Source: Hydrogenimonas sp. SS33 (lineage in GTDB: Bacteria; Campylobacterota; Campylobacteria; Campylobacterales; Hydrogenimonadaceae). From it: a DNA stretch of 64,000 nucleotides. A model generated the notes under the pieces. That model searched no databases. It had not been told where the DNA came from and saw nothing but the letters and a program-made list of their open reading frames with translations. The stretch spans positions 2,094,501-2,158,500 of the forward strand of contig NZ_AP026369.1 in the NCBI RefSeq assembly GCF_040436365.1, given 5' to 3'. The first letter of the stretch is position 1. Every line of letters begins with the position of its first letter. The position numbers and the translations under genes were made by a program. Of this stretch, positions 1,715 to 6,929 are shown piece after piece.

Positions 1715-4700
1715 ATGAATGAACAACTGCTCGGTGAATTTCTGCTTCTGCTCTCCCTTCTGTTCGGACTGACCTATCTCTTCGCCGGTTTTCTGGAGCG
1801 GCTCAAGATCCCGGGAATCCTCGCGGCTCTCTTTGTCGCGATGGGCATCCACTACACCCCGCTGGGTACCATTCTGACCAAAGGGCTCAACGGAGAGATA
1901 TTCACGGTCCTGGCGGACCTGGGGGTACTCTTCCTCCTCTTCTTCATCGGCCTGCAGATCGACATGAAGGAGATGCGCCGCCAAAGCGGCGAGATCGTCA
2001 TGGCGACGGTACTCAACACCCTTGTCCCCTTTCTGATGGGCATGGGAGTGATGCTCTGGCTCGGATACGGCTGGACCCTCGCTTTCGTCATCGGCGTCAC
2101 CCGCATGCCGACGGCGGAGGCGGTCATCGTCCCGATCCTCGACGAATTCGACCTGATCAAAACGAAAATCGGCAACTATATCGTCGGAGCGGGTGTGCTC
2201 GACGATGTGATCGAAGTCTTTCTGGTCGCTTTCGTCTCGATCTGGATCGGTGAAAAGACGGGGCTGGTGGCGAGCGATTCCAGGGAGATCGGCGATATCG
2301 CCCTCAATATCGCGATTTTCGTGGCGGTGGCGTGGTTCGCCCGCCGATTCGTCCTGGTGCCGCTTTCGCGTTGGACGCAGATCAAAGTCTCCAACCTCGT
2401 CATGCTGATGATCCTGATTCTCTTCCTTTTCGGCGGTTTTGCGGAGTATGCGGACCTGGGGCTGGTGGTGGGAGCCATCGTCGCGGGCATGCTGATGCGG
2501 CCGGTCTTCGATGCCGCCGGCCTTCCCGGGGAGCGGGCCGACCGGGCGACGCGTGCCGTCGCATACGGATTTTTCGGGGTCATCTTCTTCCTGTGGGTAG
2601 GCATGAGCGTCGACCTTCGCGGCATGGTCGAAGCGCCCGAACTGGCGATTCTGCTCTTCCTTGCCGCCTTCGTGGGCAAACTTCTGGGTATTTTTCTGAT
2701 GGTGCCGATGAAAAAGCTGACCGTCAAAGAGGCATGGGCGGTGGGAATCGGCCTCAACGCGAGGCTGACGACGGAGATCATCGTCGCGAAGCTGCTGCTC
2801 GATGCCCAGCTGATCGACACCCAGCTCTTCACGGCCCTGGTGGCGGCCTCCTCCGTTTCGACGGTGATCGTTCCTCTTGCCTTTTCGGTTCTGGTGGCCA
2901 GGTGGCGGAAAGATCTCATCAAAAGCGCCCCCGTTTCCGAAGTCGCCAAAGAGGGGAGCGAAATCACCGAAGCTGCCGTACCCTGGCATGCCAAGCCGAT
3001 ACAGGCCGTGCTGCAGATGCTTCGGACCGATCCGAAAAGGGGCCTTTCGAATGTCGATGCATCCCAGCGTCTGAGGCAGTACGGCCCCAACCGGATCGAG
3101 GCGGTCCACAAAGAGAAGTGGTACTGGATACTCCTGCGGCAGTTTACCGACGTATTAATCATCATTCTGCTGGTCGCGGCCGCGATCTCCTTCGCGATCG
3201 GGGAGATGGGGGATGCCGTCACGATCATGGCGATCGTCATACTCAACGGCATTCTCGGCTTCGTGCAGGAGTTCAAGGCCGAAAAGGCGATCGAAGCGCT
3301 TCAGAAGATGCTCTCGCCCAAATGCAAAGCGGTGCGGGAGGGCCAGGAGGTCGAAATCGACGCGTCGCGGCTGGTGCCCGGCGACATCGTGCTGCTGGAG
3401 ATCGGCGACAGGGTGCCGGCGGACCTTCGGCTGATCCAGGCGGTCAATCTCAAGATCGACGAATCGGCGCTGACGGGCGAATCGGTTTCGGTTTCCAAAG
3501 ATGTCAAACCGGTCCCCGAAGCCGCACCGCTGGCCGAACGTCACGACATGGCCTGGATGGGCACGAGCGTCACCAACGGCTACGCGCGGGGGGTCGTCGT
3601 GGCGACGGGCATGTCGACGGAATTCGGAAAGATCGCCAAACTCACCAGCGAAGTGAAACAGACGAAGACGCCGCTGCAGAAAAAACTGGCGGTGCTCGGC
3701 AAGAAGCTGGGGATTCTCTCCGTCGCTATCTCGGCGCTCGTGGCGATTGTCGGGTATCTGTTCGGCAAGGATCTGATGGAGATGTTCCTCACCGGCGTCT
3801 CCCTGGCCGTGGCGGTGGTCCCCGAAGGGCTGCCGGCGGTCGTGACGATCACACTGGCCCTCGGCGTCAAGGCGATGGTGCGCCAGCATGCGCTGCTGCG
3901 GCGCCTGCAGGCGGCCGAAAACCTCGGCAGCGCCAATGTCATCTGTACCGACAAGACCGGAACGCTGACACAGAATCAGATGACGGTCAAAAAGATCTGG
4001 ACCTTCGCCGGAGAGGTGGACGTGACCGGCAGCGGATACGATCCGGCGGGCCATTTCGAAGCGAACGGCGAGCGGGTCAACTACAAAAAGCGTCCCGATC
4101 TGCTGCTTCTTCTGAAGACTGGACTGCTCTGCAACCACGCCGACCTGCGCAAGGAGCAGGAGGGGTGGAAGATTTCGGGCGAACCGACCGAAGCCGCGCT
4201 GATCGTGGCGGCCTACAAGGCGTGGCTGACACCGGGCGAACCGAAGATCGTCAGCGAATTCTCCTTCAACTCCGAGCGCAAACGGATGACCGTGGTGGTC
4301 GAAGAGAAGGGGCAGAAGGTCGCCTACGTCAAAGGGGCGCCGGAAGTGCTGGTCGCGCGGGCCACCCACTATTTCGACGGCACCGACAAAAAACCGCTGG
4401 ACGAGAGGATGCGCAAAGCCTTCGAGGAGGCCTATGTCGACCTGGCCAAGAAGGGGCTTCGCACCCTGGCGCTGGCCAAACGGGTGCTGCCGCCCGATAC
4501 GAAGCTCGATCCAGACGATGTGGAGAAGGATCTGACGCTGCTGGGTGTGGTGGGCATCATCGACCCGCCGCGGCCGGAGGTGCCCGAAGCGATTGCGACG
4601 GCGCAGCGTGCCGGCATCCGGGTTGTCATGATCACGGGCGACGCGCCGCTGACGGCCCTGGCGATCGCCAAAGAGGTGGGGCTCGCCGCGACGCGGGCCG

Positions 4701-5656
4701 TTACGGGGAGCGAACTGGCCGGCATGGAGGACGAGGCGCTCAAAACCGCCCTCAAAGAGGGGGTCATCTTCGCCCGGACGACGCCGCAGGACAAGCTGCG
4801 CATCGTGAAGGCGCTCCAGAGCGAAGGGCTCGTGACGGCGATGACGGGCGACGGGGTTAACGACGCACCGGCGCTCAAGCGGGCCGATATCGGCATCGCG
4901 ATGGGATTGCGGGGCACCGACGTCGCCAAAGGGGCGGCTGACATGATCCTCCTGGATGACAACTTCGCCTCGATCGTGGGCGCCGTGCGCGAAGGGCGTC
5001 GGCAATACGACAACATCAAAAAATTCGTCACCTACCTGCTCTCATCCAATACCGGCGAGACGATCGCGATTTTCGTCAACATCCTGCTGGGCGGCCCGCT
5101 GATCCTGCTGCCGGTGCAGATTCTGTGGATGAACCTCGTCACCGACGGGATGACGGCGGTGGCGCTGGGGCTCGAACCGGCCGAAAAGGGGATCATGGAG
5201 CGGCCGCCAAGGTCGGTGAACGCCCCCTTCCTGCAGCTGCGGGGCGTGCTCATGATCGTCCTGCTGGGAAGCTACATCGGCGGGGGCACGCTCTGGCTCT
5301 TCCACCACTATCTGGCCTCCGGGCTGCCCGAGACGCAGGCGGTGGCGCTGGCGCAGACGGTCGCCTTCACGGGCATTATCATCCTCGAAAAGATGAATGT
5401 CTTCAACTATCGCAGTCTCCGCGCCCCGATGCCGGTGATCGGCTTCTTCTCCAACCCCTGGGTGCTGGGGGCGTGGACGCTCACCGTCTCGGCCCAGGCT
5501 GCGGCCGTGTATGTGCCATTTTTGCAGGAGGCCCTGCACACCGTGCCGCTGCGTCTTGAAGACTGGCTGCTGATCTTCGAAGTGGCGGTACCGATCTTCG
5601 TCGTGGTAGAATTGTTCAAAGCTTTCGAATGGTGGGTCTTGAAAAGGAGGGGATGA
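1715..5656 (+). CDS. Cation:proton antiporter fused to P-type (P2A-like) cation ATPase
   Basis: A single 1313-residue frame joins two transporters. Residues ~1-392 form a CPA2/Kef-type cation:proton antiporter with about 12 hydrophobic segments and an Asp-Asp pair in GAGVLDDVIEV, as in electrogenic antiporters. After a ~30-residue charged linker, residues ~422-1313 form a complete P-type ATPase: actuator TGES at 587-590, PEGLP in M4 at 703-707, phosphorylation site DKTGTLT with Asp746, and TGDGVNDAP around 1044. M5 SSNTGE and M6 NLVTDG carry the Asn/Glu/Thr/Asp set that binds Ca2+ in SERCA-type pumps, so Ca2+ or Mn2+ is the likeliest pumped ion. ATG at 1715 is chosen because translation from the upstream TTG at 1622 would run through repeat A2. 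The MgtC-like gene follows after 1 bp. No frameshift or stop is seen at the junction. Confidence 0.9.
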   Translation: MNEQLLGEFLLLLSLLFGLTYLFAGFLERLKIPGILAALFVAMGIHYTPLGTILTKGLNGEIFTVLADLGVLFLLFFIGLQIDMKEMRRQSGEIVMATVLNTLVPFLMGMGVMLWLGYGWTLAFVIGVTRMPTAEAVIVPILDEFDLIKTKIGNYIVGAGVLDDVIEVFLVAFVSIWIGEKTGLVASDSREIGDIALNIAIFVAVAWFARRFVLVPLSRWTQIKVSNLVMLMILILFLFGGFAEYADLGLVVGAIVAGMLMRPVFDAAGLPGERADRATRAVAYGFFGVIFFLWVGMSVDLRGMVEAPELAILLFLAAFVGKLLGIFLMVPMKKLTVKEAWAVGIGLNARLTTEIIVAKLLLDAQLIDTQLFTALVAASSVSTVIVPLAFSVLVARWRKDLIKSAPVSEVAKEGSEITEAAVPWHAKPIQAVLQMLRTDPKRGLSNVDASQRLRQYGPNRIEAVHKEKWYWILLRQFTDVLIIILLVAAAISFAIGEMGDAVTIMAIVILNGILGFVQEFKAEKAIEALQKMLSPKCKAVREGQEVEIDASRLVPGDIVLLEIGDRVPADLRLIQAVNLKIDESALTGESVSVSKDVKPVPEAAPLAERHDMAWMGTSVTNGYARGVVVATGMSTEFGKIAKLTSEVKQTKTPLQKKLAVLGKKLGILSVAISALVAIVGYLFGKDLMEMFLTGVSLAVAVVPEGLPAVVTITLALGVKAMVRQHALLRRLQAAENLGSANVICTDKTGTLTQNQMTVKKIWTFAGEVDVTGSGYDPAGHFEANGERVNYKKRPDLLLLLKTGLLCNHADLRKEQEGWKISGEPTEAALIVAAYKAWLTPGEPKIVSEFSFNSERKRMTVVVEEKGQKVAYVKGAPEVLVARATHYFDGTDKKPLDERMRKAFEEAYVDLAKKGLRTLALAKRVLPPDTKLDPDDVEKDLTLLGVVGIIDPPRPEVPEAIATAQRAGIRVVMITGDAPLTALAIAKEVGLAATRAVTGSELAGMEDEALKTALKEGVIFARTTPQDKLRIVKALQSEGLVTAMTGDGVNDAPALKRADIGIAMGLRGTDVAKGAADMILLDDNFASIVGAVREGRRQYDNIKKFVTYLLSSNTGETIAIFVNILLGGPLILLPVQILWMNLVTDGMTAVALGLEPAEKGIMERPPRSVNAPFLQLRGVLMIVLLGSYIGGGTLWLFHHYLASGLPETQAVALAQTVAFTGIIILEKMNVFNYRSLRAPMPVIGFFSNPWVLGAWTLTVSAQAAAVYVPFLQEALHTVPLRLEDWLLIFEVAVPIFVVVELFKAFEWWVLKRRG

Positions 5657-5657
5657 G

Positions 5658-6929
5658 GTGGATTACACGATTCTGAAACTTCTTCTTATAGCCGTCCTTC
5701 TCGGTTTTCTGGTCGGCATGCAGCGCTCCATGACCTATCTGCGCAAAAACGAATCGTTCTTTGCGGGAAGCCGGACCTTCGCGCTGATCGCCCTCGCCGG
5801 TTTCCTGTCGGGGTGGATAGAAACCTACGTCCGGGGTTTCCTCCTCGTCTCGACCGCTGTGTTCGCCCTGATGGTGGCACTCTCCTACCTACTGAAAGTG
5901 AGGGAACGGAACCGGTGGGGCATGACCACCCAGGTGGCCGCCATCGTCACCTTCTTTCTGGGGGTCATGATCTGGTACCGGCTCGAAAACTACGCCATCT
6001 TCATCGGGGTCATGATGATCGTCCTGCTGGAGCTCAAGCCGAGGCTTCAGCAGATCGAAACCCATATATCCGCGACCGATATCCACGCGGTGACGCTGCT
6101 TCTGATCATGAGCTTCATCGTGCTGCCGGTGCTGCCGGACAAAATGATCGGCCCCTACCATCTTTTCAATCCCTACAAGACCTGGCTCATGGCCGTCATC
6201 ATCGCCGGCATCTCCTTCGTGGGGTATGTGGCGATCAAAGTGCTTGGTCAGAAACACGGCGTCTTTCTGACCGGGGCGGCCGGAGGGCTCATCTCTTCGA
6301 CGGCAGTGTCGATTTCCCTCTCCCAGATGTTCCAGAAACAGTACGAACTGATCAACAATTATGCCGGCGGCATCGCCATCGCCTGTACTTTCATGTATCT
6401 GCGGGTTCTTTTCGAAGCCTTCGTCATCCATCCCGAACTGGCATGGCGCCTGACGCCGGCCTATCTGGGGGCGGCGGGTTCGGGACTGCTTTTCAGTTGG
6501 TGGCTCTACACCCACGCCAAAGCGGCGGAGATCTCCATCGAAAACAACGCCATCATGAAAAATCCCCTGCAGTTGAGTGAAGCGATCAAATTCGGACTCC
6601 TTTTCGGCATTATCTACGGGGCTATCGCTTTCGTTCAGACCCGGTACGGCAATGTGGGAGTCTATCTCGTCGCCTTCTTTTCCGGGTTGACCGATGTGGA
6701 TGCCATCACCCTCTCCCTGAGCGAACTGGCGAAGGAGGGGAAACTGGTACAGAACGCTTCGATGAACGGCATTGTCATCGCCTCCGTGACCAACTCCGTG
6801 GTGAAACTGGGTATCGTCTACTGGCTGGGGGGTGCGAGGCTGGGATGGCGGCTGACCCAGTTTTTCATTCTGACCCTGGGACTCATGGGCGTGGGGCTTT
6901 TTGTCGTGGAAGGGGTGCCCCATGGATGA
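5658..6929 (+). CDS. MgtC/SapB-type membrane protein with DUF4010 domain
   Basis: A 423-residue polytopic membrane protein. Residues 1-~140 resemble the MgtC/SapB N-terminal membrane domain (LLGFLVGMQRS, then a GSRTFALIALAGFLSG stretch). The rest matches the DUF4010 layout with many further membrane helices and a GAAGGLISSTAVSISL segment. GTG at 5658 is the start because AAGGAGG lies ~8 nt upstream, and only 1 bp separates it from the ATPase stop, so the two are probably translated together. The family is poorly characterised, and a role in magnesium or cation homeostasis is only suggested by the MgtC link and the neighbouring cation pump. Confidence 0.82.
   Translation: MDYTILKLLLIAVLLGFLVGMQRSMTYLRKNESFFAGSRTFALIALAGFLSGWIETYVRGFLLVSTAVFALMVALSYLLKVRERNRWGMTTQVAAIVTFFLGVMIWYRLENYAIFIGVMMIVLLELKPRLQQIETHISATDIHAVTLLLIMSFIVLPVLPDKMIGPYHLFNPYKTWLMAVIIAGISFVGYVAIKVLGQKHGVFLTGAAGGLISSTAVSISLSQMFQKQYELINNYAGGIAIACTFMYLRVLFEAFVIHPELAWRLTPAYLGAAGSGLLFSWWLYTHAKAAEISIENNAIMKNPLQLSEAIKFGLLFGIIYGAIAFVQTRYGNVGVYLVAFFSGLTDVDAITLSLSELAKEGKLVQNASMNGIVIASVTNSVVKLGIVYWLGGARLGWRLTQFFILTLGLMGVGLFVVEGVPHG

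Follow-up and report, generated by a model that had tools for sequence, protein, structure and literature searches.

As a rule, a primary pump and a secondary antiporter are distinct proteins, connected only via the ion gradients that they share. Among the systems that come closest to joining a pump with another transport component, KdpFABC contains a P-type ATPase that works with a channel-like K+ subunit, and in the mgtCB operon of Salmonella an MgtC-domain protein is encoded together with a P-type ATPase. Among the Ca2+-ATPases, LMCA1 has one Ca2+ at site II and carries Arg795 in place of site I, and presumably moves H+ in exchange for Ca2+ (PMC11977196); the roles of E309 in SERCA and of the corresponding E292 in LMCA1 are taken from the same source.

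Here we report a single gene of Hydrogenimonas sp. SS33 that encodes both a CPA2-type antiporter and a P2A-type ATPase, identified in a 64,000-nucleotide window, by which we mean the whole stretch of DNA that was analysed. It resembles KdpFABC in that a P-type pump is bound to a transport protein of another family; however, the components of KdpFABC are individual subunits, the additional C-terminal helices of the P2A half are missing from KdpB, and the antiporter is unrelated to KdpA. The likeness to the Salmonella mgtCB operon lies in the joint encoding of an MgtC-domain protein and a P-type ATPase, whereas here the MgtC protein carries a DUF4010 domain and follows the pump, which is of the P2A type and not of the Mg2+-type P3B. 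Each half is of a known kind and the joined form appears to be a new variation. No description of an antiporter-pump fusion was found in the searched literature, which is weak evidence of novelty as subscription papers lay mostly outside it, and the words "fused" and "fusion" are absent from a 2023 review of P-type ATPases (PMC10654040).

Architecture of the fused gene

The frame of the fused gene (Table 1) has no internal stop, and all of its Pfam domains score above their cut-offs, in agreement with the first-pass annotation, which had described one uninterrupted frame with intact catalytic residues in both halves. The DD, TGES, DKTGT, PEGLP, NLVTDG and GDGVND motifs were all found, and in an alignment of 19 fused proteins the catalytic motifs are invariant or nearly so. 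An in-frame TTG is also present upstream, at 1622; the ATG at 1715 (MNEQLLGEF) was taken as the start because homologues begin there.

Table 1. Coordinates of the fused gene, its parts and associated loci (window positions unless a locus is given)
Feature	Coordinates	Strand	Description
Fused gene, CPA2-type antiporter + P2A-type ATPase	1715..5656	+	1313 aa; frame, Pfam, homologues
Antiporter half	1715..2896	+	residues 1-394; PF00999 at 19-394
R130 in TM4 (TRMPTAE)	2102..2104	+	invariant in pump-linked antiporters
D163-D164	2201..2206	+	align with the NapA DD pair (TM5); invariant in fused set
K322 (TM10)	2678..2680	+	aligns with NapA K305; invariant in fused set
Linker	2897..2983	+	residues 395-423, 29 residues; variable sequence, low model confidence
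P2A ATPase half	2984..5653	+	residues 424-1313; Pfam shows complete A, P and N regions and a complete 10-helix membrane region
E704 in PEGLP (M4)	3824..3826	+	position of SERCA E309 / LMCA1 E292
D746 in DKTGT	3950..3952	+	phosphorylated aspartate of P-type ATPases
MgtC + DUF4010 membrane protein	5658..6929	+	423 aa; directly downstream of fusion
Pump-half deletion locus	L088:6342-9064 (G080)		free antiporter, scar, MgtC gene
LOG/lysine-decarboxylase-like proteins	L084:3744-4907, L116:3240-4196, L128:7842-8513

The Na_H_Exchanger domain (PF00999) of the antiporter half scores 152.9 bits against a cut-off of 26.2, and the nearest solved relatives of this half are NapA (4bwz, E 1e-15) and then KefC. 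NapA is matched in the aligned DD pair, in the lysine of TM10 and in having no RCK domain, the DD pair in TM5 and the TM10 lysine being features of electrogenic members of the family; the antiporter half differs from it in two TM4 residues at the ion site, R130 and E135, and in being fused to a pump. Pfam detected no RCK/KTN domain C-terminal to the antiporter half, which separates it from the KefC type, and the score with the CPA2 subfamily model TIGR00932 lies below the cut-off (105.7 vs 238.3 bits). Judged by these sequence features, the N-terminal half is a predicted NapA-like antiporter of the DD type that lacks an RCK domain and is CPA2-like, albeit outside the curated TIGR00932 model.

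In the pump half, Pfam models were matched above cut-off by residues 424-492 (PF00690), 531-723 (PF00122), 742-1058 (PF00702), 805-886 (PF13246) and 1128-1304 (PF00689), and the signature motifs are located at 587-590 (TGES), 703-707 (PEGLP), 746-750 (DKTGT), 1045-1050 (GDGVND) and 1140-1145 (NLVTDG). SPCA1 is the nearest relative, followed by LMCA1 and SERCA, with a match over 880 aa; like SPCA/PMR1, LMCA1 and SERCA, the pump half has all catalytic motifs and matches over the full length. The cut-offs of both the PMR1-type equivalog (781.2 vs 798.3 bits) and the SERCA-type equivalog (668.7 vs 703.4 bits) are just missed, so that best matches safely predict a P2A pump whose subtype is not assignable from the cut-offs. 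The side chains of Ca2+ site II (SERCA E309, N796 and D800) are matched by E704, N1140 and D1144. SERCA site I is incomplete: N1112, E1115 and T1143 are present, and thus the likeness to SERCA extends to the Asn and Glu of M5 and the Thr of M6 as well as to the M4 Glu and the M6 Asn and Asp of site II, whereas the position of E908 is occupied by a Leu that adjoins R1233, itself aligned with an arginine in SPCA1. The lack of this Glu, the antiporter at the N-terminus and the scores just under the equivalog cut-offs distinguish the pump half from known P2A Ca2+-ATPases. With site II present and a Leu next to R1233 where SERCA has E908, the pump half is likely to move a single ion per cycle and to carry H+ the other way, by analogy with LMCA1.

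The linker is kept at 21-27 residues in all fused homologues with the frame preserved, and its sequence varies freely, the mean share of the commonest residue being 0.40 vs about 0.81 in both halves. Conservation of the linker, which the first-pass annotation proposed to check, is therefore borne out for length and not for sequence. In comparisons with near relatives, synonymous codon changes far outnumber nonsynonymous ones in both halves but not in the linker; with L093 the counts are 151 vs 51 in the antiporter half, 194 vs 49 in the pump half and 8 vs 9 in the linker, a pattern indicative of purifying selection on both halves and not on the linker sequence. An AlphaFold model of residues 1-1200 contains the helices of the antiporter and places the linker below a pLDDT of 50, and its overall quality (mean pLDDT 59.7, pTM 0.38) is too poor for contacts or inter-domain geometry. 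Because the length is kept, the sequence is free, and both the C-terminus of the antiporter and the N-terminus of the pump are presumably cytoplasmic by family topology, the linker resembles a flexible tether on the cytoplasmic side with a fixed reach; its free evolution points to a tether, not to a communicating interface. Translation of a separate pump from an internal start was rejected, as no in-frame start codon in the linker is preceded by a ribosome-binding-like site.

Distribution and history of fused and split forms

A scan of named genomes revealed fused homologues in Hydrogenimonas, Nitratiruptor, Sulfurovum and related Campylobacterota. Across this phylum we identified 21 fused homologues that are distinct and intact, eight of them in single-contig genomes (G000, G016, G040, G098, G252, G294, G318 and G335). 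Among 397 Campylobacterota genomes with a completeness of at least 90%, the antiporter half is present in 18, comprising 13 with the intact fusion, one bin with a broken frame (G402), one with a decayed copy (G075), one with an adjacent split pair (G163) and two with pump-less antiporters (G080 and G055). In the decayed copy, which lies in a single-contig region (L092:5910-9802), the fused gene is broken by frameshifts and stops and the MgtC gene beside it is intact. The antiporter half had no match in a plasmid collection, and a plasmid origin was rejected.

Two genes joined by chance, by an assembly error or by a frameshift could in principle mimic a fusion, and the distribution bears on this. 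Broken or split versions do occur in some metagenome bins (L089, L043 and L044) and a decayed copy in L092; however, the gene is fused at full length in eight single-contig genomes and in many bins, and the changes in linker length are in-frame, so that an artefact is refuted and we consider it exceedingly improbable. The first-pass annotation had named two observations that would speak against a true fusion, a stop or frameshift in the linker and halves that are separate genes in all relatives; instead, the linker is open, the frame is kept in homologues, and intact fused homologues exist in Campylobacterota.

In other lineages the two proteins are encoded by neighbouring genes. In the Aquificota (L056, L104 and L105), and likewise in L055, L090 and L103, the antiporter and the pump are separate genes that share between one and some tens of bases. 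A gene order of antiporter, universal stress protein and ATPase was observed in Pseudomonadota and in a Myxococcota-labelled bin (L046, L048, L115, and L106 joined through its contig end to L107); the universal stress protein genes (L046:1799-2203, L048:1828-2229, L115:7433-7837 and L106:97-477) possibly encode a nucleotide-sensing regulator. The pump occurs with no adjacent antiporter in L049 and in L045/L109, and in the latter locus a short linker and a single N-terminal helix, predicted to span the membrane, take the place of the antiporter (L109:4548-7409, L045:4475-7336). Overall, several phyla keep the antiporter and the pump together, be it in one protein or in adjacent genes.

The fused proteins are not monophyletic in a tree built from both halves joined, in which L095 pairs with the split L090; the tree of the pump half agrees with it, and that of the antiporter half is poorly resolved. 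A single origin of the fusion with no later splitting was rejected, as forcing the fused forms into one clade in the joined-halves tree gave p-AU 1.7e-6. The fused forms therefore imply either two fusions, or one fusion and one re-splitting, the two scenarios being about equally economical.

Such a history can be read in different ways. Because the split genes overlap by a few bases, a small indel would suffice for fusion, and the product might be two independent transporters on one chain, derived from an overlapping operon and made in equal amounts at a shared place, with no mechanistic coupling. The unconstrained linker sequence and the retention of all catalytic residues in both halves agree with this reading, whereas more than one fusion or fission event and the steady linker length suggest interplay. 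We regard such uncoupled tethering as a serious possibility, less likely than not and close in likelihood to the reading in which the pump controls the antiporter.

The MgtC/DUF4010 gene downstream of the fusion

As the first-pass annotation had noted, an MgtC-like gene starts one base after the fusion. Its start codon is GTG, and its product is not MgtC alone, but matches both MgtC (PF02308, 58.3 bits vs a cut-off of 31.4) and DUF4010 (212.7 bits). An AGGAGG sequence is found within the last codons of the fusion, and together with the one-base gap it suggests that this gene may be translationally coupled to the fusion. An MgtC/DUF4010 gene is the immediate downstream neighbour of the fusion at 19 of the 21 distinct fused loci; at the other two, L084 and L085, it is located 1.8 kb downstream. 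Split pairs for which flanking sequence is available lack this gene beside them, and the two intact pump-less antiporters have it.

Of the 50 DUF4010 genes in 60 related genomes, 30 immediately follow a P-type ATPase gene in the same orientation, some after the fusion and others after pumps such as those of L116 and L128 (plasma-membrane H+-ATPase, P3A). A second MgtC/DUF4010 gene is found downstream of P3A H+-ATPase genes in G000 (G000:C1:728000-745000, L116) and among the 60 related genomes. A strict partnership of MgtC/DUF4010 with the fusion was rejected, as close relatives stand alone (L117, L118 and L120), and the protein seems to be a frequent companion of P-type ATPases, not part of the fusion only. 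A Foldseek search with an AlphaFold model of the MgtC/DUF4010 protein (pTM 0.54) returned no match at E<=0.001.

Two further features of these neighbourhoods were observed. LOG/lysine-decarboxylase-like proteins with similar starts (PWEHPK) recur beside the sets of ATPase and MgtC/DUF4010 genes. In L118:2850-6015 (G009), the genes resemble those downstream of the fusion in the window, with MgtC followed by carbonic anhydrase-like and ketopantoate reductase-like genes, and there is no fused transporter, at what is apparently an empty or lost site within the genus.

Pump loss, R130 and candidate modes of action

The locus L088 illustrates what follows the loss of a pump. Its antiporter is free-standing, with 427 aa and a gene neighbourhood as in the fused L080, and between its stop codon and the MgtC gene lies a stretch of 54-56 bp that matches the final pump codons with 84-85% identity (E about 6e-12). 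This scar implies that the ancestor was fused and lost its pump. The L088 antiporter is altered at 4 of the 86 sites that are invariant in pump-linked antiporters, including R130G, vs none of the 86 in its relatives L079 and L080. R130 is present in all 33 pump-linked antiporters, including that of L103 at about 50% identity; the position holds G in L088 and L in L091, the two intact pump-less antiporters, and Leu in NapA and KefC. A frame-broken copy with no visible pump (L110/L057) retains R130. With two pump-less copies and this counter-case, a dependence of R130 on pump linkage is a lead, not proof.

The antiporter and MgtC genes survive with no pump in L088 and L091, and these antiporter-only loci together with the pump-only loci indicate that neither half strictly needs the other. 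The loss of R130 and the relaxed conservation after pump deletion nevertheless suggest interplay, and so tell against two independent transporters. The same residue might instead mean that the antiporter half does not transport normally and that, with R130 next to its ion site, it serves the pump as a sensor, a gate or an anchor for dimerisation, given that R130 is an unusual charge for a TM4 position that is Leu in NapA and KefC and is fixed where a pump is linked. We find this decidedly doubtful, since D163, D164 and K322 are invariant, purifying selection on the antiporter half is strong, and intact antiporters persist alone beside MgtC (L088 and L091).

The first-pass annotation had suggested that the fusion couples proton return to cation extrusion or lets one transporter regulate the other. 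Both engine families normally bring H+ in and send a cation out, so that neither would recycle the protons of the other; proton return is thus weak as a specific benefit, and joint control of Ca2+, Na+ and pH would be a more economical purpose. Regulation gains indirect support from the adjacency of the split forms, from more than one fusion or fission, and from the loss of R130 where the pump is missing, while the control itself is what we infer from them.

The reading that we favour, to which we assign about an even chance, is a two-engine cation exporter in which the antiporter is tuned to, or controlled via, the attached pump, the halves most likely being coupled physically. In this model, one inner-membrane protein would carry two transport engines on one chain, and the antiporter would probably dimerise as NapA does, bringing two pumps into one complex. 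The pump would export Ca2+ (or Mn2+), probably moving a single ion for each ATP and carrying H+ the other way, and the antiporter would export Na+ (or another monovalent cation) against H+. The pump to which it is joined would set the activity of the antiporter, and R130, next to the ion site, would contribute to this dependence. The outcome would be coordinated Ca2+, Na+ and pH homeostasis in marine and vent bacteria, with the MgtC/DUF4010 protein as a putative co-translated partner. An unlikely, stronger form is a primary-secondary hybrid, in which the conformational or phosphorylation cycle of the pump would gate the covalently attached antiporter, with R130 as the switch; ATP hydrolysis would then control antiport directly or ions would pass between the two, and MgtC/DUF4010 would be a third component.

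As a stable, clade-wide CPA2-P2A fusion that has formed or split more than once, this protein is a natural construct for asking about direct coupling between primary pumps and secondary antiporters. R130 provides a concrete lead for how a pump could control an antiporter, and the fusion locus gives the uncharacterised MgtC/DUF4010 proteins a physical setting.
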